From Aeriscardovia sp. (GTDB taxonomy: Bacteria; Actinomycetota; Actinomycetes; Actinomycetales; Bifidobacteriaceae): a DNA stretch of 64,000 bases. Numbering within the stretch: the first letter of the stretch is position 1; every line of letters begins with the position of its first letter. The stretch spans positions 62,001 to 126,000 of the forward strand of contig JAFPUC010000014.1 in assembly GCA_017413255.1 (NCBI GenBank), read 5' to 3'. Below the pieces are notes generated by a model. It had not been told where the DNA came from. It saw only the letters and a program-made list of their open reading frames with translations, and did not search any database. Below, piece by piece: positions 5,517-47,225 of this stretch. The position numbers and the translations under genes were made by a program.

Positions 5517-5955
5517 AATTCTGCAAATCGGAGGCAGCTCTTTTAAAATCTTCGGCGCAAGCGAAGTTCTCATACACGCTTGCAAATCTTAAATAAGCTA
5601 CGGCGTCCAGTTTTTTTAAAGGTTTTAAAACGGCCAGGCCTATCTGCCTGCTAGACACCCTCACGACTCCTTCGGATCGGATGGAATCTTCCACCTGCTG
5701 GGCTATGGCCAATATATCTTCATTTGTTACGGGCCTGCCTTTGCAGGCTTTCATCAGTCCGTTTACTATTTTCCCCTCGTCAAAGAGTTCAAACCTTCCG
5801 CTTTTTTTGCTCACCAGAAGCTGGGTCGACTCTACCGTAGTGAACCTTCTCTCGCACTTTTTGCACCTCCTCCTCCGTTTCACTGAGGTGCCGTGTTCGC
5901 ACTCGCGGGTGTCTATTACTTCAGTAGAGGGGGACTTACAAAAAGGACACTGCAT
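5509..5955 (-). CDS. nrdR: NrdR, ribonucleotide reductase repressor
   Basis: A (d)ATP-sensing transcriptional repressor of ribonucleotide reductase genes. The start is set at the ATG at 5955, giving 148 residues that begin MQCPFCKSP. A longer in-frame reading to 6099 adds 48 residues unlike the family that lie wholly inside fni. The N-terminal zinc ribbon has CPFC and CKKC pairs, with the RRRR-C...RFTT-E segment after it. The ATP-cone follows (GRFELFDEGKIV, then VSSRQIG and ASVYENF). The start overlaps the fni stop as TAATG, so it is the last gene of the ldh-mevalonate operon. Bifidobacteria and other actinobacteria usually pair nrdR with lexA, so this location is unusual. No NrdR box was noticed in the window. 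Confidence 0.95.
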   Translation of the reverse strand: MQCPFCKSPSTEVIDTRECEHGTSVKRRRRCKKCERRFTTVESTQLLVSKKSGRFELFDEGKIVNGLMKACKGRPVTNEDILAIAQQVEDSIRSEGVVRVSSRQIGLAVLKPLKKLDAVAYLRFASVYENFACAEDFKRAASDLQNSK

Positions 5956-7049
5956 TAAATTTCTCCGGGGCTTATCAGCCTGGCCATCTGCCTTGCATAC
6001 GACTCGAGCTCCGCATCGCAGATCCACGGTATGTACTGACACGAGTCCGTAGAAGACTGGCCGTAAAGGGAGATAAGGCCTGAAAGCTGTTCTTTCCACT
6101 CCCCGATCTCTTCTATCAGCGCATCTTCCCCGCTGCTTAAAAGGGTGAAAAGAAATTCACCCGATACTCCAATCCACTTTGCGCCCAAAGCCAGGGACTT
6201 TAAAATATCCAAAGGATTTCGTATGCCCCCCGATGCAATGACATCCGGAAGCGGAATCGCGTCTTCTTCGGGAAGGGAGAGAAGCTCCCGGGCAAACCGG
6301 GCATTTATAAGGGACTGCACGGTAGAGAAACCGCATTCTGAAAGGTAGGAAAAGTCTCCTTTTTCCCTTCTGCAGTTTTCTATGTCGCAAAAGTTCGTTC
6401 CTCCCTTTCCGGAAACATCTACTGCCTCTATGCCCATCTCTGCCAAAGCTTTTATGGAGGCAACGTCAAATCCGAATCCCACCTCTTTGACTATTACTGG
6501 AACCCCGGCCGCCTCGCGTATGGTTCCTATTTTTTCCTTCCATATCCAGTCCCTGTTTCCCTCGGGCATTACAAGCTCCTGGACCGCGTTTACATGAATT
6601 TGAAGGGCTATGGGGTCTAGAGACTTTACAAGAAGCTTTACGGTTTTAACGTCCGTATTGGCGTTGACATTTACAAGCACGGGCTGGTTTGTGAGCTTTC
6701 TTGCCTCAACAAAGCCTTCAAGGGCCTCCGGGTTTAATTCTACAAAGCTTGCCGAGCCGAACGCCATGGGAATCCCATTTTGCTCACTGGCTCTGCAAAG
6801 GCTCCGGTTTATGCTGTCCCCCTCTTCAATTCCCCCAGTCATGGCGTTTATAAAGAAGGGCGCCTGAACGCGGAAACCAAAAAAACTGCATTCCGTATTC
6901 GTAGAGTGTGGGATAGTTTCGGGAAGGGTGGGCCTCACCAAAAAGATCTTGTCGAAATCATTTTTTTTCGGCCTCTTACTGTGGCGCGCCAAGGCTATAT
7001 GATCCTTTTTTCTGGCCGCCGCAGCCTGGCGCAAAGCTTCCTCACTCAT
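5955..7049 (-). CDS. fni: Type 2 isopentenyl-diphosphate isomerase (FMN dependent)
   Basis: Interconverts IPP and DMAPP with reduced FMN, the last step of the mevalonate branch. 364 residues. Type 2 landmarks are clear: RKKDHI near the start, INAMTGG, PVLVNVNA, the substrate segment QIHVNAVQELVMPEGNRDW, VIVKEVGFG, VSGKGGTNF, and the FMN phosphate loop ASGGIRNPLDILKSLALGA. It is unrelated to the Nudix type 1 enzyme. The ATG at 7049 overlaps the mvaK2 stop by 8 bases and its stop shares one base with the nrdR start, so it belongs to one transcript with the three GHMP-family enzymes upstream. Confidence 0.96.
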   Translation of the reverse strand: MSEEALRQAAAARKKDHIALARHSKRPKKNDFDKIFLVRPTLPETIPHSTNTECSFFGFRVQAPFFINAMTGGIEEGDSINRSLCRASEQNGIPMAFGSASFVELNPEALEGFVEARKLTNQPVLVNVNANTDVKTVKLLVKSLDPIALQIHVNAVQELVMPEGNRDWIWKEKIGTIREAAGVPVIVKEVGFGFDVASIKALAEMGIEAVDVSGKGGTNFCDIENCRREKGDFSYLSECGFSTVQSLINARFARELLSLPEEDAIPLPDVIASGGIRNPLDILKSLALGAKWIGVSGEFLFTLLSSGEDALIEEIGEWKEQLSGLISLYGQSSTDSCQYIPWICDAELESYARQMARLISPGEI

Positions 7050-8061
7050 TTTCCTCTTTCAGACTTAAAACCTCGCTCAATATCCTAAATCCGGCTCTTT
7101 TCCAGCTTTCAGAGAGTTTTGAGCACTCTTCCTCGTTTCCAATCGCCAGTGCGCAGTCCCCGCCGCCGGCTCCGGAGGTTTTGGCGCAGATTTCAAATGA
7201 ATCTGCAATTTTGAGGGCATGCCTCAAGCCTCTGCCTTCCAGGGGTATCTGGTTCAACCTGCTAAATGATTCCAGATTATACCTAGATGATCGTATGGCC
7301 CTGAAGAGGGCCTCCGCATCTTCTTTCTCTATCCCTTCTTTTGCCCTCAAACACAGCTCATCTGATCTGCGCACGAATTTCAAAGGAAGATCTATCCCGC
7401 TTATAAGGGAGGGAGTGGAAGCGGGGTGCTGTGTCCAAAGGGCCAGCGAGGAAAGGGAGGAGGGGAAGGCAAGCTTTTGGGCAAAAAGGCCGGGCCAGCT
7501 TTTAAATACCGCATCAAAAGAAAGATGCTTTAAAAGCCAGTTTCGATCAAATGAAGAATAAAAGACGGGACCCAGAAGGCAGGCAGCCACATCTCCCCCC
7601 GAGCCCGATTTTTGCCATGAAAAGTGCGCAAGGATGGAAAGCTTTAGCATTTCTTCCTCTTTAATTTGCGCCCCGTAAAGCAAGCATATGGCGCGGGCCA
7701 GGGCGCAAACCATGGCCGCAGAAGAGCCAAAACCCAGTTTTTTCCCCCCTTCCTGAAGCTCGCTTCCAATTTCAATTTGGAGCGTGAGGCTCTTTTGCGT
7801 AAGACGCCTGCAAAATCCCTCGATAAGCTTCACGGCAAAAAGGGAAAAACAGCATTCTGGAGGGACGGAGGAAGCAAAGGCGCCCTTTTCCCATGAAAAA
7901 GAGACGGGGGGGAAAAGGGCGGAGGATACCCAGCCCTTTTCCCCCTCTTTTGCCTCCACCCAAAGCTTTCTTTTTGTAGGAGTTACGATGGCAAATGATC
8001 CGGGCTTCAAAACCGCATATTCTCCGCACAGGTACAGCTTTCCTGGCACTTCAATCTTCAC
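7042..8061 (-). CDS. mvaK2: Phosphomevalonate kinase (GHMP family)
   Basis: Phosphorylates 5-phosphomevalonate to the diphosphate. The start is placed at the GTG at 8061, which has GGAGG upstream and overlaps the mvaD stop by 11 bases; this gives 339 residues beginning with KIEVPGKLYLCGEYAVL, the GHMP motif 1. The longer frame to 8214 adds 51 residues that read through mvaD and match nothing in the family. Motif 2 is KLGFGSSAAMVCALARAI and motif 3 is TSGAGGGDCALAIG. Third of the GHMP genes in the order mvk, mvaD, mvaK2, the same order as in Gram-positive cocci and in the Streptomyces CL190 cluster. Confidence 0.93.
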   Translation of the reverse strand: MKIEVPGKLYLCGEYAVLKPGSFAIVTPTKRKLWVEAKEGEKGWVSSALFPPVSFSWEKGAFASSVPPECCFSLFAVKLIEGFCRRLTQKSLTLQIEIGSELQEGGKKLGFGSSAAMVCALARAICLLYGAQIKEEEMLKLSILAHFSWQKSGSGGDVAACLLGPVFYSSFDRNWLLKHLSFDAVFKSWPGLFAQKLAFPSSLSSLALWTQHPASTPSLISGIDLPLKFVRRSDELCLRAKEGIEKEDAEALFRAIRSSRYNLESFSRLNQIPLEGRGLRHALKIADSFEICAKTSGAGGGDCALAIGNEEECSKLSESWKRAGFRILSEVLSLKEENE

Positions 8062-9016
8062 TCCACGCCTCCACCCCGGGCCCTGCAGATGCACAGAAGC
8101 ATGAAACGGCGCCACTGAAGGCTTTTTCGGCCCTTTTTTGTATAAAGTTAAGATCTTCTTTCCTGCACAAAAGCGCCGCGTTTGAACCCGCGTCGCAGCT
8201 CCAGTAGCAGCCAACGCCTTCCTCCCTTATTTCTTTTGCCAGATCGAGGGCCCTAAGGGAATGGGGCGAAAGATAGGAAAAGCCGGACGAAAGGGTGAGG
8301 GCGTGCATCTGGCAGGCGTTCTTTTCAGAAATTTGCCCAAGCCTCTCAAAAGAATTGTCTTCTATGGCCTTTTGAGCCTCTTTGCACGCTTTCCTGCATT
8401 CCTGCCTCCAGGAGGTAAAGAAGGGGGAGGACTTTGAAAGTCTCATACCCTCGGTGGAGGAAACTTTTTTCTTTTCTGCGCCGAAGGAAAGGTAGAGGAT
8501 GCAGATGGGCATGGAGGATTTTTCTTCTATTGGGACCGCGAAACTTTCCCCGCTTTCCCTTCCTTCCTTCCACAGCACAAACCCTCCAAAGACGGAGCGC
8601 GCAGCCGACCCGGATCCCAATCTAGACGCGATGGAAAGCTCCCTTTTGGAAACAGTGAGCTTCATTTCTTTGGCAAAAGCTGCAGCCAGGGCGCAAAAGG
8701 CGGAAGCAGAGCTGGCAAAACCCGCGCTTTTGGGGACGAAGTTTTGCGAATCTACAAAAAAGTGGGAAGGGGGAAGAGCGAAGAAAGAAAGAAGGGTAGA
8801 GAGGTAGGAAAACACCCTCTGGGCCTCTTTGCCTTTTTCTTCCTTCCCATCCAAAACAAACCTGTCTTCTTTGGAAAGCGAAAGTTTGGTTTTGGTGTAG
8901 AAGGCATCCAAGGTAAGAGAGAGGCTGGGGGCGGAGGGGAGGCGCAGCTTTTCGTCCTCCTTTCCCCAATACTTTACGAGAGCCAGATTGGTATGGGCCA
9001 GAGCAAAAGAGGTCAT
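8051..9016 (-). CDS. mvaD: Diphosphomevalonate decarboxylase
   Basis: ATP-dependent decarboxylation of mevalonate diphosphate to IPP. 321 residues, the usual bacterial length. The N-terminal signature NLALVKYWGK with a following SLSLTL is diagnostic. SASAFCALAAAF and SRLGSGSAARSVFGGF are the GHMP motif 2 region, and the catalytic aspartate lies in CDAGSNAALL near the C terminus. The ATG shares a base with the mvk stop (TGATG). It sits between mevalonate kinase and phosphomevalonate kinase, supporting a complete conversion of mevalonate to IPP inside one operon. Confidence 0.95.
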   Translation of the reverse strand: MTSFALAHTNLALVKYWGKEDEKLRLPSAPSLSLTLDAFYTKTKLSLSKEDRFVLDGKEEKGKEAQRVFSYLSTLLSFFALPPSHFFVDSQNFVPKSAGFASSASAFCALAAAFAKEMKLTVSKRELSIASRLGSGSAARSVFGGFVLWKEGRESGESFAVPIEEKSSMPICILYLSFGAEKKKVSSTEGMRLSKSSPFFTSWRQECRKACKEAQKAIEDNSFERLGQISEKNACQMHALTLSSGFSYLSPHSLRALDLAKEIREEGVGCYWSCDAGSNAALLCRKEDLNFIQKRAEKAFSGAVSCFCASAGPGVEAWSED

Positions 9017-9882
9017 CAGATTTCCTCCATCCAGGAAGCAAAGTCAGAAAAACTTCTTTGCGCCTTCCTGGCCAAAGCCTCGTCGCTAAAGAGGCCTATG
9101 GCGCATCCTCCTAGGCCCGATCCCGTCAGCTTTGCCCCTAAAGCCCCCGCATCCATGCATCGATCCACTATTTTGTCGAGTTTTGGAGTTGAAAGGCCCA
9201 GCTGCCTTAAAAGGGCATGGGCTTTTGTCATGCTCTGCCCCACTTGCTCGGCTTTGCCCCAACTTTCCTCGGTTTCTTCGCACACTTTGCAAAGCTCTGC
9301 CATAACTTCTTTCCTCTGCGGGGACTGGGACACTTTTTTGATTGCGCTTTTAGTCTTTCCTCCCTCACCGCTGTAAACCACGAGGAGGAAGGCATTTAAG
9401 GGCGAAAGAGGAAAAGAAATTCCCTTGGAAAAAAGAATAGGGGTCTTGCTGGCGCAGGTAGAAAGGTCCAGGCCGCTGGCTTTTCCATGCACGGCGTCTT
9501 CCGCCTCGGAGCAGAGATCCAAAATTTCTTCCTCATCCATGCCCATGCGAAATGCAAAATTTACAGATCTTGCCATGGCAAGGGAGCTGGCGGCGGAAGA
9601 TCCCAGGCCTGCGCCCTGAGGTATGGAGCTTTTAAAATGGAGGTTTACGCAGTGAGAACCCAGCATTCTTCCCGCCAAAAGGGAAATGCCCGCAAAATTT
9701 TTGGGAAGGTCCCTTAGCCTGCCGCAAAATCCATCGGTATTGATGGAGCTTTCAAAAAGCGTAGGGGAACAGTCGACCTCTATTTCAAGGCCCGACAAGG
9801 GCACCGCTATGGCAGGCGATCCGTAAAGCACGCTGTGCTCCCCCACGATTATCGCCTTGGCGTGGGCGCGGGGGAAAGACAA
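9016..9882 (-). CDS. mvk: Mevalonate kinase, TTG start
   Basis: Phosphorylates mevalonate, the entry step of this operon. 288 residues. Motif 1 AHAKAIIVGEHSVLYG (6-21), motif 2 PQGAGLGSSAASSLAMA, the catalytic aspartate segment GKASGLDLS, and motif 3 KLTGSGLGGCAIGLF are all present. The start codon is TTG at 9882, directly behind the ldh stop with no spacer; an AGGA about ten bases upstream lies inside the end of ldh. No in-frame alternative fits, because any later start would cut motif 1. A TTG start together with ldh-coupled translation may set a low expression level. HMG-CoA synthase and reductase, which would make the mevalonate, are not in the window. Confidence 0.93.
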   Translation of the reverse strand: MSFPRAHAKAIIVGEHSVLYGSPAIAVPLSGLEIEVDCSPTLFESSINTDGFCGRLRDLPKNFAGISLLAGRMLGSHCVNLHFKSSIPQGAGLGSSAASSLAMARSVNFAFRMGMDEEEILDLCSEAEDAVHGKASGLDLSTCASKTPILFSKGISFPLSPLNAFLLVVYSGEGGKTKSAIKKVSQSPQRKEVMAELCKVCEETEESWGKAEQVGQSMTKAHALLRQLGLSTPKLDKIVDRCMDAGALGAKLTGSGLGGCAIGLFSDEALARKAQRSFSDFASWMEEI

Positions 9883-10890
<1,008 letters not shown>

Positions 10891-39440: not shown

Positions 39441-40547
39441 ATGGCGGAAGCTGACGAAAGACAAAAATTTTCCCGGATAGAAGATCTGTTTGCATCGGTA
39501 TGTCGGGCGATAGATCCGGAAGGCGTAAAGAAGAAGGTAAAAGATCTCGAGGAGAAGACGTCTGCAGAGAACTTGTGGGACGATCCGGATTCGGCTCAGG
39601 CTCTTTTTGCGTCCCTTACCGCAAATCAGGCTTTACTCTCCAAAATTGAAGAGCTGAAAACCTCCCTCTCCGATATTTCCCTGATGATTTCCCTTGCCCA
39701 AGATGAGGCAGACCCCTCGCTTTTGCAGGAAGCCGATGAGGAAATGAAAAAAGCGGAGGCGCAAATTTCTTCCCTGCAGCTTCGCTCTCTTTTGAACGGG
39801 GAGTACGACGAAAAGAATGCCGTCATCACTATTAGAAGCGGGGCTGGGGGAAATGACGCAGCTGACTGGGCCCAAATGCTCTTAAGGATGTATCTGCATT
39901 GGTGTAAGAAAAAGGGGTACGAGACCAGCTTGCTCAACCTTTCCCAAGGGGAGGAAGGAGGGGTCAAATCCGCCACTTTCCAGGTTATGGCTCCCTACAG
40001 TTATGGAATTTTGGCCAGTGAAGCCGGTACGCACAGGCTCGTTAGGATTTCCCCCTTTGACAATCAGGGTCGCAGGCATACAAGCTTTGCGGGAGTTGAA
40101 GTGATTCCTCTGGTAGAAAGCTCGGATGAAGTGAAAATTGACGAGGGGGATCTACGCATAGACACCTTCCAGTCTTCGGGCCCCGGAGGACAAGGGGTAA
40201 ATACCACCTACTCAGCCGTAAGAATCACCCACCTTCCCACAGGCATCGTGGTAAATATGCAGAACCAAAGGAGCCAGATACAAAACAAGGCCCTGGCCAT
40301 GCAAATCCTCCAATCAAAGCTTCTAGCCATTAAAAAGCAGGAGGAAAAAGAAGAGAGGAAGGAACTGGCGGGGGATGTGAAAGCAAGCTGGGGGGACCAG
40401 ATCCGATCCTATGTATTTCACCCCTATCAGATGGTAAAAGACCTGAGGACGGGAGTTGAAACTTCAGACGTAGAAGGAGTATTGTCCGGAAATATAGACG
40501 AATTTCTCTCGAGCGGAATGCATTGGAAAAAGCAACATGAAAAATAA
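39441..40547 (+). CDS. prfB: Peptide chain release factor 2
   Basis: Releases the finished peptide at UGA and UAA codons. 368 residues in one uninterrupted frame, so the programmed +1 frameshift of enterobacterial prfB is not used. The stop-recognition motif reads SPF (RISPFDNQGRRHTSF) and the catalytic GGQ lies in SSGPGGQGVNTTYSAVR. The N-terminal helical domain is complete. Its last 11 bases overlap smpB. In most actinobacteria ftsE and ftsX lie between prfB and smpB; they are missing here. Confidence 0.96.
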   Translation: MAEADERQKFSRIEDLFASVCRAIDPEGVKKKVKDLEEKTSAENLWDDPDSAQALFASLTANQALLSKIEELKTSLSDISLMISLAQDEADPSLLQEADEEMKKAEAQISSLQLRSLLNGEYDEKNAVITIRSGAGGNDAADWAQMLLRMYLHWCKKKGYETSLLNLSQGEEGGVKSATFQVMAPYSYGILASEAGTHRLVRISPFDNQGRRHTSFAGVEVIPLVESSDEVKIDEGDLRIDTFQSSGPGGQGVNTTYSAVRITHLPTGIVVNMQNQRSQIQNKALAMQILQSKLLAIKKQEEKEERKELAGDVKASWGDQIRSYVFHPYQMVKDLRTGVETSDVEGVLSGNIDEFLSSGMHWKKQHEK

Positions 40548-41031
40548 AAAGGCCGACGATAAAACCATAGCCACCAACAGAAGGGCCAAGTTCGATTACT
40601 TTTTGGAAGATGAAATAGAGGCAGGCCTGGTATTGATGGGAAGCGAAGTAAAGTCTCTGCGAGATTCTAGAGCTTCTCTGGCCCAGTCTTTCATTTCAAT
40701 AGATAAGAGAGGCGAAGCATGGCTGGAGGGGGCAAATATTTCCGGCTACGACTTTGCAAACAGTTTTAAGCACGACTCGCTAAGAAAGCGTAAGCTTCTT
40801 TTACATAAAAAGCAGCTTCTAAAGCTCGCCCAGAAATTGGAGGTAAAAGGGTACACCCTGGTGCCCCTGCGCCTCTACTTTAACGATGAAGGCCTGGTAA
40901 AGCTGTCTTTTTCCCTTGGAAAGGGAAAAAAGGAATACGATAAAAGAAGGGCACTCAGAGAAGAGGAAGACAAGAAAGAGGCTCAAAGAGCGCTGCGTCT
41001 AAAAAACCTAAAGAGGAGTGTGAGGGCCTAA
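40537..41031 (+). CDS. smpB: SsrA-binding protein SmpB
   Basis: Binds tmRNA and delivers it to stalled ribosomes for trans-translation. 164 residues. NRRAKFDYFLEDEIEAGLVLMGSEVKSLRDSRASLAQSF is the classic OB-fold region (quoted in part by its ends NRRAKFDY and GSEVKSLR), with LLHKKQL and a basic C-terminal tail (RLKNLKRSVRA). The start overlaps the prfB stop by 11 bases. I saw no tmRNA gene next to it. Confidence 0.96.
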   Translation: MKNKKADDKTIATNRRAKFDYFLEDEIEAGLVLMGSEVKSLRDSRASLAQSFISIDKRGEAWLEGANISGYDFANSFKHDSLRKRKLLLHKKQLLKLAQKLEVKGYTLVPLRLYFNDEGLVKLSFSLGKGKKEYDKRRALREEEDKKEAQRALRLKNLKRSVRA

Positions 41032-41095
41032 GAGAGATAAGTTTAAAAAGGAGGCAATGCCTCACCTGAAATTTCCAAACTAAAGGAGCAAATAA

Positions 41096-41146
41096 ATGGG
41101 TAGCTGCCACCGCAACAACGTCCTTAAAAAGCGCGTCAGGTACTAA
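41096..41146 (+). other. 16-codon frame with strong ribosome site before the pseudogene
   Basis: ATG at 41096 is preceded by AAGGAG at ideal spacing (about eight bases). The frame MGSCHRNNVLKKRVRY then meets TAA at 41144, exactly where similarity to the surface protein begins. The basic MG..RR-like start recalls MGFYRRIRKR of the intact paralogue at 42677, so this may be the remnant 5' end of the pseudogene after an internal deletion. It may instead be a chance frame. Confidence 0.4.
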
Positions 41147-42567
41147 AGTACAACGGCATTTTCACACCCCTTTCGGCCCAACTGAACGTAGCGAACCAAT
41201 CCACGGGCCTTTTGGAGAGAAATCCCGTCTATGCTCCCGGTGAACCTATAGAGTTTCAGTTGACCCTCACTCTTCTGATCGCAGCTCCCTGATCAACGCT
41301 TCCGCCGCGGTTCAATCCTTCACAATCCCGGGCTGGTACGGCGCCCAGGTATCTCTCGGAGAGGGAATGGAGATTGATACCTTTCTTTCCAACTCCACCT
41401 ATGTGGCTGGCATGGAATACCAGGGCAATTCCACTTTGTAGGGAGACTCTACGGTCTTTTGGGGGCCTTACCCCCCAGCAGCAGGAAAACAATCAGCAAT
41501 ACATTTCCGGCTCCTCCTCAAATTCTTCCACCATACCTTCTAAAGATTCCACTTACTGGGGGATATCCTTTAACTCCGCAGGAGTGAAGTATATAGAAGC
41601 GAACGGGGAGGCGGCGGCTACTTTTTCTTCCAAAGCCTACAAACCTGCTGGTGGCTTACAACTCGGAGACAAATTCGCCATAACCTTTTACGGACAGATT
41701 TTGTCAGGAGTTAGCGGAGCCTCCAATTCCCTTTACGGGTTTGCAGGTTATCAAAGCAATTTCCCGCAAGATCCTGGGATGTCTAGCGGATGATGGATTT
41801 TGTGTAATGGACAGGGCGCTTCTACCGTAAACTACTTCCACACCGACGAGCTTTGGAAGTATGAGAGAGGCAGCTATAAAACCGCCACAGTATATGTTTC
41901 TACCCTCCAGATCTCTTCACCCACTTCCGTTATTCAGGTAGTCAAAGACGGGAAGGTTCAGGAGAATCCTTCCTATCCCCAAGAAAGCCCCATAGATTTC
42001 CAAATCTCATCCACCCTCCCCTCCTCTAAAAAGATGGTGGGAAATTACAGTTACTTTAGGATAGAAATAAGTCCGGAATCCGGAATAAGCCTTTACAATG
42101 GGGCTCTGGCTATAAACTCGCAATACCTTACCGTAGGAGGCGCTCCTATTTCTTCGGTGCCCGGAGTTAAAATCCTGAGCTCTGCCTCCTCCTTCATTGA
42201 AAATCCGGAAAGCATAAGCGTTATCTTTTCCCCAGATTCTATTAGCTACCTGATTTCCAAAGGACTGGCTAAGTCGGGAAGACTGCAGATAGAAGTTGTG
42301 AGGTATTTAAACCAGAACGCTTCACAAGCTGCACAATCCAATAAGATCGGGGCCTCTTCCTATTTGACCCCTTCTGCAAGCAGAAACTTTTCCCTGCAAT
42401 CGGAACAAAGCGAAATCAGTGTGCAAGAAGAGGAAATCAGCATAGAAAGTCTTCCGTATACTGGAGACAGGTACATGAGCATGTTTATGCTCTCTGTTTT
42501 TAGGGTCCCCCTCTTTGCGGCAGGCGTCGGGGCTGGGGAAATAAACAAAAGGTTCAAGAGCAAATAA
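41146..42567 (+). pseudogene. Decayed copy of the C-terminal third of the surface protein
   Basis: The DNA from here to 42567 matches residues about 890-1354 of the intact protein at 42677-46741, including long near-identical runs (for example LLERNPVYAPGEPIEFQLTLTL in both, shown here by its ends LLERNP and QLTLTL). Lesions: a 1-base deletion near 41275, an in-frame TAG at 41439, a 1-base insertion near 41460 that restores the frame, and TGG to TGA at 41791. After that the frame is open to a LPYTG motif, a weak membrane segment and a KRFKSK tail, so the anchor remains readable. No signal peptide or intact first half is present. The gene cannot make a full anchored product. Confidence 0.88.
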
Positions 42568-42676
42568 GGAAAAAGGGAAAGGAAGGAAGTTTGCCTCCGA
42601 GCGGGAGAGGCGCGGGTGTAGCATATATAGTAAAAGAAGAATCGTTACATTAATTTCGCAGCTACGGAGATAAGCT

Positions 42677-45600
42677 TTGGGATTTTACCGTCGCATTCGC
42701 AAAAGGATCCCTAAAAGGATTGTTTTTTGTTTCTTGGTTATGATCTGCACTTTGGCAGTAGCTTTGTCCTTTGGATTGCGATCTTACGCCAACGCTACAT
42801 TTAATCCAGACGTACAGATAAATGTCTTAAATTCTGATGGTCTTGTAGAAACTAATCCAAACTTTAATGAGAGGCAACCCTACTATAAGCTGCAGCTCAG
42901 CGCAGTGCTACCAAGTGTTCAACAGATAGACAATGAAAGCAATGCCACGGGCTATGCCATTTCGGCCGTAGCCTCCGGAGGAGTGTCGGAACTGAACTTA
43001 GGCATACTGCAAACGTGGACGGGCTACAATCTTGCCCCTGAGTTTGCAGGTATGAACATATCAACAGCCTCTTCGAATTCCAACCCCAATTATGAACTGC
43101 TAGAGCAAATCGCTTACGGAGACCTCGAGGGAGTGCAAATAACAGGCACTTCTTCGCCTGCTTACTGGGGCACGCAGTGGACTCTCACTCTTACATCAGC
43201 TTTTATTACTTTTTTGGAACAGAACGGATACAAGGCAGCTACGGCTTCTTCTCCCCAGCCTTCCAGCCCCGGCCTTCAGCCCGGCGAAAGATTTGGCATA
43301 GTATTTTATGCCAAAGTAGGCGCCAACACTTCAGGAAAGAAGGACGCCCTCACAGCGTGGGCAGGATGGCCCAGTTCTAGCGGCCAAACTCCAAGTTCTT
43401 GGGCGGGGGCATCGACAGATACTTTGGACATGGGCGACAAAGCTCTGACGAATGAAAGCCATTTAAATATAGAACTGGGAGAGATAAAATCCGGCCTTTT
43501 TGATGATAAGCAAAAAATAGAGGTTCAGCCGGGAACTCCGATTGACTTCCAGGCAGTGGCTACCCTCCCGGATCCCTCTTCCCTTACCGGAAGCTCTCCA
43601 TATTTCTCTTTTGAACTCATCCCTTCCTTAGGCATCAGCCTGACAAACCTTGGACAGGTTAAAGTGGCAGGATTGCCACTCTCTTCGCTTCCATCGGGAT
43701 GGAAAGTGGAACCTTCCTCAGATGCCGGAAGCGTAGAGGGAGGCAAATTTGCCTATTGGATCCTTGAACTTACAGCGGCAGACATAGAAGAAATAGAAAA
43801 AGCAGGCTTCTCTCCCGCTACGGCTTCTTCCCCCCAGTCTTCCAGTCCCAAAATTGCCGTAGGATCCCCTTTCGCCCTGACTTTTACAGGAGAGCTTAAC
43901 TCTTCTGCCAATGAGGAAACTCTATTGCGCGCCAGGGTGGGACTTATGTCGGATTCGGGAAACTGGACTCTAATTTCTTCTAAAGATGCGCAGCTTAGCT
44001 TCACTCCTACAGGCCAGCAAGAGAGCATTCCGGAAGACCTTTCCTTCAACTTCTTAAATAGCCAAGGCCTAGTAGACACTTCCAAGCCCCATTACTACAT
44101 GACCTCCCTGGAGTCCCCTTCCGATCCTTCAAAAAGTATAGTTTCGCGCCTCGGAGTGCATAAGTTTCAAATTACCCTCCCTCTGCCCAATCCTTCGCAA
44201 ATGGCAAAGGATAATTCCGTACTCGTGATTAAAAATATTCCGGGAGCGGGCCTTGCTATAGAGAACCCCGACTATATACAAAATGGCCATGCCTATATCG
44301 AAGGCATCGCCATAGCGGGTATGTCGCTAAGTGTTTTTAGGGAAGTACGCGCGCTTTACGCCAATGTGCCTTTCACTACCAGCCCTTCGGATTCCAAAAA
44401 TCCGATGATTGAAGGAACTGGCGACGGTTCCAACTATTGGGAGCTAATCTTAACTCCCTCTGAAGTTGAAGAAATTGAACAAAAAGGAGTATCTGCGGCT
44501 ACATCTTCCTCGCCTCAGGGAAAAGCCCCGGGACTGGCTCCCGGAGACAAATTTGCAATAACCTTTTCCGGGTTTGTCACAAGCGCTGCCTCGGGAAATG
44601 TGACAGATGAAGCCCAGGTAGGCTGGGCCTCTATGAGCCAGTCTTCCTCTCAAAGTTCATCTTCCGCCCCTTCCACTTCTTCAAAGTCTGTAAAGATCAA
44701 AAACTTCTCACCCTCTTCATCTCAGACCCTTACTTTAGTCCCTCAAACTTTGCAGGTGTACCCAGCCGCAAACCTGAGCATGGTAAACCACGGATACCTC
44801 AACCAGTACCCCTACGCAGGCATTGAAACTCCGATGCAGTTTCAGCTCTCCTCTGCCTTGCCCAATCCCTCTCAGATGACCGGGCAGTGGGCCAATTTTG
44901 ATCTTTATGACATCCCTCTTACAGGAGTGAGCGTAGAAAACCCCAAAGAAGCCGCTTCTGATTTTGAACTGGCGGGCTTGCCGTTGCTTAGCATTCCAGG
45001 CGTTCAAATCACATCTTCTTCTCAAGAAGAGTGGATAGAGGGAGATGAATCGGGGCAGGAAAGTTTTGAAGTGGGCCTGACCCGGCAATCTGTGGAATAC
45101 ATCGAGAAGAACGGCTTTGCCCCTGCCACGAGGACCGCTGTCCAATCCACAAAGCCGGGAATCAATCCGGGGGCCCTTTTTGCCTTAACTTTCCCGGGAG
45201 AACTCAATTCTTCCGCGATTTCCTACCAGGGAAATTGCAGGGATACTGCCTACAGCCAATATGAAGGGAGCATGGACGGCAAACCTATAACCGAGAAATC
45301 TACCTTGGCATCGCTGGGAATAAAGTACAACGGCATTTCCACGCCCCTTTCAGCCCAGCTAAACGTTGTAAACCAGAAAACGGGGCTTTTGGAGAGAAAT
45401 CCCGTCTACGCTCCCGGTGAACCTATAGAGTTCCAGCTGACCCTTACCCTCCCTGATCCAGATTCACTTTCCAATACTGCCCAGGCCGCAAACTCTAACT
45501 CAATTCCAGGATGGTACGGAATTCAAATAACGCCCGGAAAGGGAGTGGATGTTCAAACTTATATTTCCACGGAAGTGACCGTAGCGGGTCTCCAGTACCA

Positions 45601-46741
45601 GTACACCCCCACCCTTATGAATGACAGCTCGGTCTTTGGGGGGCTTTCTTCCCAGGAGCAGGAAGAGGGGCAGCAGTACATTTCAGGAACAGCTTCCAAT
45701 TCTCCGACAATCTCTTCAGATGACTCATCCTACTGGGGGTTGGCCTTCAATTCTGCAGGTATAAAGTACATAGAAGAAAATGGAGAGCTTCCTGCAACTT
45801 TCACTTCCAAGGCTCACTGGCAAAGCGGAGGACTAAAGCCCGGAGACAAGTTTGCCATAATTTTCTACGGGCAATTAAATTCCGATGCCTCCGCCTCAAA
45901 TCCCCTCTATGCATTTGCGGGCTACGAGAGTAATTATCCCGGAGATCCCCAGCGTTCCAGCGGATGGTGGACAGAATCTGACGGCCAGTGGGGGCTGTCT
46001 AACCCCACGGTAAACTTCCGGCAAGGCTGGCAGTACCAGTTGAGCAGCTATAAGACCGCATCGGTCTATATTTCCAACTTCCAAATGTCCTCTCCTACAG
46101 ACACCCTCCAGGTTGTTAAGGATGGAAAACCGCAGGCCAACCCTTCTTACCCCCAAAATGCTCCGATAGACTTTAGGATTACTTCTTCCCTTCCCCAATC
46201 CTCTAAAATGCTTGGAAACTATGGCTATTACAGGTTAGAAATAGATCCAAAGTCGGGCGTAAGCGTTTACAACGGATCTTTGGCGGAAAATGCAGCTTAC
46301 TTTACCGTAGGGGGAAAGCTCCTCACTTCCATCCCCGGAGTTAAAGTGCTAAGTTCGTCCAGTTCGCCCGAACTTAAGGGAGGGCAGAGTTTAACTATTG
46401 CCTTTAGCCCAGCTTCCATCTCCTACATCACTTCCAACAATTTATCTTCTTCCGGAAATTTGGAAGTGGATTTTGTCGGATTTTTAAATCAGAACGCATC
46501 TTTTAAAGCTAATTCAAACCAAATTGCTTCCTTCTCTTCCTTCTCTTCTTCGCCTTTGGGAGAGTACTCCGTCCAGTCAACTTCCAGCGAAGTTAGCATT
46601 CAGGAAGAGAAGGGAGCCATCCGCAACCTCCCGCTAACAGGAGGAAAAGGAGTGGTTTTAATCTTGCTTTTAAGCCTGGTGACAGTAGTTATGTCCGCGG
46701 CGGGGATGGTGCTGGCCAAAAAGATGATGAAAAAAGGGTAA
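42677..46741 (+). CDS. Sortase-anchored six-repeat surface protein, TTG start
   Basis: 1354 residues. A basic N terminus and hydrophobic helix (1-34) end in a signal-peptidase site near ANA (40). Six modules of about 180-220 residues follow, each opening with an [N]-S-x-GLV-x-x-NP-type strand, then PIxFQ...LPxPS, a V-AGxPLxSxPG strand and ending PGxxFAxxFxGxL (for example PGERFGIVFYAKV, PGDKFAITFSGFV, PGALFALTFPGEL). The C terminus has the sorting signal LPLTGG (1318), a membrane helix and KKMMKKG. The modules loosely resemble pilin-type isopeptide domains. Start is TTG at 42677 with GGAGA upstream; no in-frame ATG precedes the signal peptide. A Ser-rich linker lies near 655-680. No sortase gene is in the window. 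Probably an adhesin or structural wall protein. Confidence 0.85.
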   Translation: MGFYRRIRKRIPKRIVFCFLVMICTLAVALSFGLRSYANATFNPDVQINVLNSDGLVETNPNFNERQPYYKLQLSAVLPSVQQIDNESNATGYAISAVASGGVSELNLGILQTWTGYNLAPEFAGMNISTASSNSNPNYELLEQIAYGDLEGVQITGTSSPAYWGTQWTLTLTSAFITFLEQNGYKAATASSPQPSSPGLQPGERFGIVFYAKVGANTSGKKDALTAWAGWPSSSGQTPSSWAGASTDTLDMGDKALTNESHLNIELGEIKSGLFDDKQKIEVQPGTPIDFQAVATLPDPSSLTGSSPYFSFELIPSLGISLTNLGQVKVAGLPLSSLPSGWKVEPSSDAGSVEGGKFAYWILELTAADIEEIEKAGFSPATASSPQSSSPKIAVGSPFALTFTGELNSSANEETLLRARVGLMSDSGNWTLISSKDAQLSFTPTGQQESIPEDLSFNFLNSQGLVDTSKPHYYMTSLESPSDPSKSIVSRLGVHKFQITLPLPNPSQMAKDNSVLVIKNIPGAGLAIENPDYIQNGHAYIEGIAIAGMSLSVFREVRALYANVPFTTSPSDSKNPMIEGTGDGSNYWELILTPSEVEEIEQKGVSAATSSSPQGKAPGLAPGDKFAITFSGFVTSAASGNVTDEAQVGWASMSQSSSQSSSSAPSTSSKSVKIKNFSPSSSQTLTLVPQTLQVYPAANLSMVNHGYLNQYPYAGIETPMQFQLSSALPNPSQMTGQWANFDLYDIPLTGVSVENPKEAASDFELAGLPLLSIPGVQITSSSQEEWIEGDESGQESFEVGLTRQSVEYIEKNGFAPATRTAVQSTKPGINPGALFALTFPGELNSSAISYQGNCRDTAYSQYEGSMDGKPITEKSTLASLGIKYNGISTPLSAQLNVVNQKTGLLERNPVYAPGEPIEFQLTLTLPDPDSLSNTAQAANSNSIPGWYGIQITPGKGVDVQTYISTEVTVAGLQYQYTPTLMNDSSVFGGLSSQEQEEGQQYISGTASNSPTISSDDSSYWGLAFNSAGIKYIEENGELPATFTSKAHWQSGGLKPGDKFAIIFYGQLNSDASASNPLYAFAGYESNYPGDPQRSSGWWTESDGQWGLSNPTVNFRQGWQYQLSSYKTASVYISNFQMSSPTDTLQVVKDGKPQANPSYPQNAPIDFRITSSLPQSSKMLGNYGYYRLEIDPKSGVSVYNGSLAENAAYFTVGGKLLTSIPGVKVLSSSSSPELKGGQSLTIAFSPASISYITSNNLSSSGNLEVDFVGFLNQNASFKANSNQIASFSSFSSSPLGEYSVQSTSSEVSIQEEKGAIRNLPLTGGKGVVLILLLSLVTVVMSAAGMVLAKKMMKKG

Positions 46742-46799: not shown

Positions 46800-47225
46800 T
46801 TACAGGCAGTGGTAAAGGGTGCAGAAAAGCAGGACGAGCCCTACGGAAAGAATTATGTGTATGAGGCCGGCGCACTCCGAAATCATTGCATTTTCTTTTT
46901 TGCCGGGAGTTTTAGAACTTAACTGCGCCATTCCCCTAACAAAGAGCATGAATACCGTTCCGAGTACGCCGATATTGTAAAAAATCATAAACCAAACAAA
47001 TAAAGCCCTGTCGGCAGCAAAAGAGTGGGAAAAATAACCAAATACGCTCAGAATCAGGAACATAAACATTCCCAGTATCAGGGTATGGGGATGAAGATCC
47101 ATGAGATTGGTTTTCTTCGCCTCTGCCGGATCCAGCCCCTTCCTCTTCGTGTATTCGCGCGCAAAAACCCCCAGGCAAAGTCCCAAAACCATATAGAACA
47201 CGGCAAACCCCAAACAAACTTTCAT
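46800..47225 (-). CDS. DUF2871 family four-helix membrane protein
   Basis: 141 residues with four membrane helices. The start FAVFYMVLGLCLGVFAREYTKRKGL and the DLHPHTLILGMFMFLIL second helix with its paired histidines match DUF2871 proteins. The histidines in helix 2 could bind heme or metal, which is only a suggestion. Function in this family is unknown. It is a single gene, divergent from the membrane protein at 47326 across a 100-base gap, and convergent with the surface protein, 58 bases away. Confidence 0.78.
   Translation of the reverse strand: MKVCLGFAVFYMVLGLCLGVFAREYTKRKGLDPAEAKKTNLMDLHPHTLILGMFMFLILSVFGYFSHSFAADRALFVWFMIFYNIGVLGTVFMLFVRGMAQLSSKTPGKKENAMISECAGLIHIILSVGLVLLFCTLYHCL

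Follow-up and report, generated by a model that had tools for sequence, protein, structure and literature searches.

The question at this locus

Directly upstream of an intact surface-protein gene, the genome of an Aeriscardovia species carries a damaged relative of that gene. We asked whether this damaged copy serves the intact one as a recombination donor, as the initial annotation had proposed, or is a relic of a different history. Aeriscardovia is a genus of the Bifidobacteriaceae, and the source organism is a gut relative of bifidobacteria with a small genome. The source genome (G000) is a 928-kb draft in 14 contigs, and the window, meaning the whole stretch of 64,000 nucleotides that was analysed, is G000:C12:62001-126000. 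The relatives used for comparison are all drafts, several or all of them metagenome-assembled, so that a chimeric contig could mimic exchange. One of them, G002, is a sister species assembled from yak abomasum (nearest named record JAGBQH010000012.1, Aeriscardovia sp.).

The remnant, here called A', sits between smpB and an intact open reading frame of 1,354 amino acids, B. The order smpB, surface gene or genes and 141-aa membrane-protein gene is common to six genomes. A further 600-kb genome, G004, is uninformative for this comparison because its contigs G004:C3 and G004:C11 end on either side of the locus, smpB was not found in it, and a gap cannot be told from a loss there. The features to which we refer are as follows.

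40537-41031, + strand: smpB, the conserved upstream flank (synteny in six genomes)
41096-41146, + strand: native start of A, an ATG with 15 further codons and then TAA (88% identity with the 5' part of A in G002)
41144-41145, + strand: junction of a 2,563-bp internal deletion, with one shared base (alignment to A of G002)
41146-42567, + strand: what is left of the 3' third of A (pseudogene A'), with an identity of 83.2% to A of G002 and of 61% to B in the same genome
41290-41292, + strand: TGA reached in the frame that follows the one-base loss, showing that no compensation results from the two indels
41439-41441, + strand: TAG in the ancestral codon frame (alignment to A of G002)
41791-41793, + strand: TGA where the sister copy has TGG (alignment to A of G002)
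42451-42465, + strand: LPYTG sorting motif of A', read from the sequence (LPFTG and LPYTG in sister copies)
42568-42676, + strand: spacer between A' and B, alignable with G002, with a ribosome-binding-like GGAG ahead of the TTG start of B
42677-46741, + strand: B, an intact LPXTG-type surface protein (LPLTG) of 1,354 aa, with 90% amino acid identity to B of G002
46800-47225, - strand: gene for the 141-aa membrane protein, the conserved downstream flank (synteny)

No known RNA, tRNA and tmRNA included, was found between smpB and A'. A phage search gave no match for the locus, a promoter scan found no sigma-70-like site, and literature searches returned nothing on this locus.

A' is the remnant of a gene that is intact in a sister species

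A' (41096-42567) can be read completely against A of G002, a stop-free gene of 1,346 aa in the same position, and the match (E=0 over 1,564 bp) excludes chance. Positions 41002-41144 align at 88% with G002 from the last part of smpB into the 5' end of A, the ATG at 41096 and 16 codons included. After a jump of 2,563 bp the match resumes at 82% and runs through the end of A into the spacer. The deletion is out of frame and creates the TAA at 41144-41146 right at its junction. The start given in the initial annotation, 41146, thus falls almost exactly on the deletion junction, but the native start with its 16 codons and the deletion itself had been missed.

Four small lesions that had been noticed in the remnant proved to be real on alignment to the intact sister orthologue. 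These are a one-base loss near 41275, a one-base gain near 41460 (placed by us at about 41457-41460), the TAG at 41439 and the change of TGG to TGA at 41791. The two indels, described as compensating, do cancel arithmetically, but no protein is rescued by them; the frame between them stops at the TGA at 41290-41292. The C-terminal anchor, held to be intact, retains its LPYTG motif, but in its membrane segment Arg and Pro replace the Ser and Leu of the G002 copy (FRVPLF versus FSVLLF).

The genome is a draft, and both one-base indels adjoin short homopolymers (CCC and TTTT/GGGGG), as would be expected if the lesions, or the whole remnant, were an artefact of assembly or sequencing. Against this, lesions of several independent kinds are confined to a single gene among those aligned, and the neighbours serS, map, prfB, smpB, B, mem, mem47, patB and uvrD align at full length to their counterparts. 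Moreover, a 2.5-kb deletion and nonsense substitutions are atypical of sequencing error, A and B are too unlike for a simple repeat collapse, and the junction connects two parts of A rather than A to B. On these alignments sequencing error is unlikely to be the sole cause of the lesions, and an artefact of any sort is scarcely credible.

It is also conceivable that A' is still productive, yielding a short peptide from 41096 or an anchored C-terminal fragment from the TTG at 41800, possibly with a regulatory effect on B. A ribosome-binding-like AAGGAG and the ATG are retained, and the frame 41794-42567 is open. However, the 255-aa frame lacks a signal peptide and has changes in the membrane segment of its anchor, no such product occurs in any sister genome, and the 16-codon peptide is merely the start of the old gene. 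We therefore regard a product of A' as very improbable.

Relative to the intact orthologue, A' carries a 2,563-bp deletion, frameshifts and stops, and an intact homologous copy adjoins it (match to B, E=3e-71). Judged from these comparisons, 41096-42567 is with a probability of about 0.88 a pseudogene, the non-functional remnant of A, which was the upstream member of an old tandem pair of LPXTG/pilin-domain genes. By origin A' is an ordinary pseudogene, and its first description as a decayed tandem copy of a surface-protein gene holds.

The duplication is old and the decay is recent

High DNA identity between A' and its neighbour had been taken as a sign of recent duplication. We found 67% identity over the 1,065-bp aligned part and 61% over 1,398 sites, and along the alignment of A' with B only the first ~120 bp reach 86%. 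The identity of A' to the A copies of other species is higher, at 83.2% for G002 and 74-75% for G003 and G005, and in a DNA tree A' joins A of G002 with full support. Because A' is nearer to sister A copies than to its own B, and the tree agrees, the duplication is older than these species. The presence of full-length A and B side by side in G002 likewise speaks against a recent duplication.

The dN/dS of A' against A of G002 is 0.134, close to the 0.125 and 0.127 of intact A pairs, which suggests that inactivation was recent. The unconstrained share of the path between A' and A was estimated at 1% (bootstrap -5% to 7%), an estimate in which too recent an inactivation would hide relaxation. 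By these sequence measures, the duplication is old and the decay alone is recent. A point against the reading as a whole is that synonymous divergence from G002 varies over the region, with dS of 0.67 between A' and A (41032-42567), 0.26 between the B copies (42677-46741) and 0.28-0.56 in flanking genes.

Site patterns do not support a donor role for A'

Silent-cassette antigenic variation is exemplified by Neisseria pilS/pilE, Borrelia vlsE and Anaplasma msp2. The present locus resembles such systems in having an incomplete copy near an intact surface gene, and A' might accordingly be a silent donor, an incomplete cassette copied segmentally into B by gene conversion to give antigenic variation. 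In addition to the position of A' directly upstream of B and the 86% identity of its first ~120 bp, a GENECONV-type scan offers one candidate tract, a stretch of ~125 bp in B that is A-like in G000 and not in G002.

45320-45444, + strand: candidate short A-like stretch in B (GENECONV-type scan; not statistically robust)

In a label-permutation test, however, an A-like run of this kind among the differences between the two B copies was not unusual (p=0.38), and B of G000 is 91% identical to B of G002 throughout. In the 1.4 kb that all have in common, 325 informative sites group A' with A of G002 and the two B copies with each other, and the two exchange-like patterns account for 5 sites each, which is no excess. 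At 61% overall identity few long identical runs remain for recombination. G000 also holds one remnant, the only donor copy available, where a silent-cassette system has several partial ones. In contrast to the known systems, the locus consists of one decaying copy at 61% identity with no robust footprint of exchange. No recent exchange between A' and B is shown by the site patterns of this between-species comparison, the proposed role of A' as a recombination donor for antigenic variation is unsupported by them, and we consider a silent donor very improbable.

Opposite copies were lost in related species

With A' read as a pseudogene, the locus can be compared across the genus. In G002, A and B are both intact and lie side by side. 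In G000, A has decayed to A' and B is intact. The opposite arrangement is found in G003 and G005, in which A is intact; B is down to ~0.57 kb in G003 (64% identical to B versus 52-58% to A), and only its anchor end is left in G005. An A/B junction, a GCYCCGGATTTA stretch shortly 3' of the end of A, is apparently common to G003 and G005, so that B was probably lost there in a single event. G006 and G001 carry one copy each, of a third type (81% identical to each other, 57-59% to B and about 50% to A). None of the six syntenic genomes is without an intact copy of ~1,350 aa.

This distribution would fit a model in which A and B are partly redundant and one intact copy per genome is enough. In a reduced genome of ~0.8-0.9 Mb, whichever copy takes the first hit would then decay. 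The pattern is that of birth-and-death among tandem surface-protein genes with reciprocal (divergent) loss: the pair is old, opposite copies decay in sister lineages, and intact copies survive elsewhere. It differs from such systems by an added, apparent exchange of the locus between lineages. Taken together, a surface gene of a reduced genome is here undergoing ordinary birth-and-death, and what makes the case interesting is the reciprocal loss along with the apparent locus exchange.

The phylogeny switches at the prfB/smpB boundary

Trees were judged by likelihood tests of fixed topologies and by sliding windows. For serS, map, prfB and uvrD, the favoured topology sets G000, G002 and G003 together with G006 against G005 with G001, and leads the next by 73, 67, 133 and 329 lnL units, respectively. 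By contrast, smpB rejects that order by 48 lnL units; in its tree G005 falls with the group of G000, G002 and G003, and G006 with G001. In sliding windows the topology switches at the prfB/smpB boundary. In the surface-gene tree the A copies of G005 and G003 are nested together, and a species-like order gave an AU p of 0.012 for protein and a marginal 0.078 for DNA. The gene for the 141-aa membrane protein is uninformative on topology, and the 3' boundary is placed only as lying before uvrD.

L026, reversed, 5688-10580, and L027:3353-8056: smpB and surface gene of G005 and G006, with discordant phylogeny

The discordance is with serS, map, prfB and uvrD, which lie on the same contigs (G006) or in the same genome, and in both G005 and G006 the two flanks share a contig with the locus. 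Chimeric assembly of unsampled relatives could possibly lie behind the switch. The flip of topology itself suggests that the locus was exchanged between lineages. A single putative import into G005 explains the topology, and the closeness of the surface genes of G006 and G001 suggests a second event. The tree tests suggest that a stretch reaching from smpB into the surface gene was replaced between lineages, by homologous recombination in the conserved flanks. Surface variety would in that case arise through exchange of the locus among cells rather than through a silent donor at the locus itself. Recombination between species at surface loci is familiar from the mosaic loci of pneumococci and Neisseria. 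The likeness is that the phylogeny shifts sharply at the locus and the flanks follow the species tree; unlike those cases, the present one comes from draft genomes of uncultured gut actinobacteria.

Cumulatively, we see about an even chance that the interval from smpB to the membrane-protein gene is an exchangeable surface locus of the genus, in the following sense: 1) it exists in the forms A plus B, A only, B only and a third single type; 2) species exchange these through recombination in the conserved flanks; 3) tandem copies are lost reciprocally; and 4) as a result, any one lineage presents a single adhesin out of several divergent ones. The story of antigenic variation gives way to a comparative and testable one, in which sister species of a gut actinobacterium undergoing genome reduction resolved one tandem pair of surface genes oppositely, and a sharp, apparent recombination boundary between lineages lies at the locus. 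It offers a natural experiment, if a small one, on the question of which adhesin copy a lineage cannot do without, and on the way in which surface diversity is maintained in a commensal whose genome is shrinking.

The encoded protein resembles sortase-assembled pilins in one domain

As read from its sequence, B has a signal peptide-like N-terminus, an LPLTGG motif, a hydrophobic stretch and a basic tail (KKMMKKG). Two matches to PF04203 above cut-off indicate that the genome encodes sortases. Naming the protein by Pfam or NCBIfam was abandoned, as hits were sub-threshold only: B scored 12.9 against TIGR01167 (cut-off 15.9) and 17.6 bits against NF033902, the SpaH/EbpB family of LPXTG-anchored major pilins (cut-off 95), of which it is not a member. 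A sequence search of the PDB gave one match, at E 0.66. Six of the seven Aeriscardovia genomes have this protein family, and a search of 182 other genomes of the family Bifidobacteriaceae found it in none.

A structure model of the last domain (pLDDT 80) resembles the middle domains of the sortase-assembled pilins EbpB, LrpA, PilA and SpaD, with Z of about 10-13. A two-domain model was set aside for its pLDDT of 45. B thus shares with sortase-assembled shaft and basal pilins (EbpB, LrpA, PilA, SpaD, BcpA) the fold of a C-terminal domain, an LPXTG-type anchor and the setting of a genome with two sortases. It differs from them in being a multi-domain protein of 1,354 aa, far under the SpaH/EbpB cut-off and known here from sequence and model. 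It is an LPXTG-type surface protein restricted to the genus, and its modelled fold points to a shaft-pilin-like domain. We infer a sortase-anchored multi-domain adhesin as the predicted product, the shared fold by itself showing no function.

A further LPXTG surface-protein locus has conserved neighbours on either side.

L030:9146-12391, L029:6689-9734 and L031:1-2238, all - strand, and L056 (G000:C12, about 17.9-18.9 kb): second LPXTG surface-protein locus

This locus is also decaying. It is intact in G006 (1,081 aa), broken into three frames in G002 and interrupted by a TAG in G001, and in G000 scraps of it are left.
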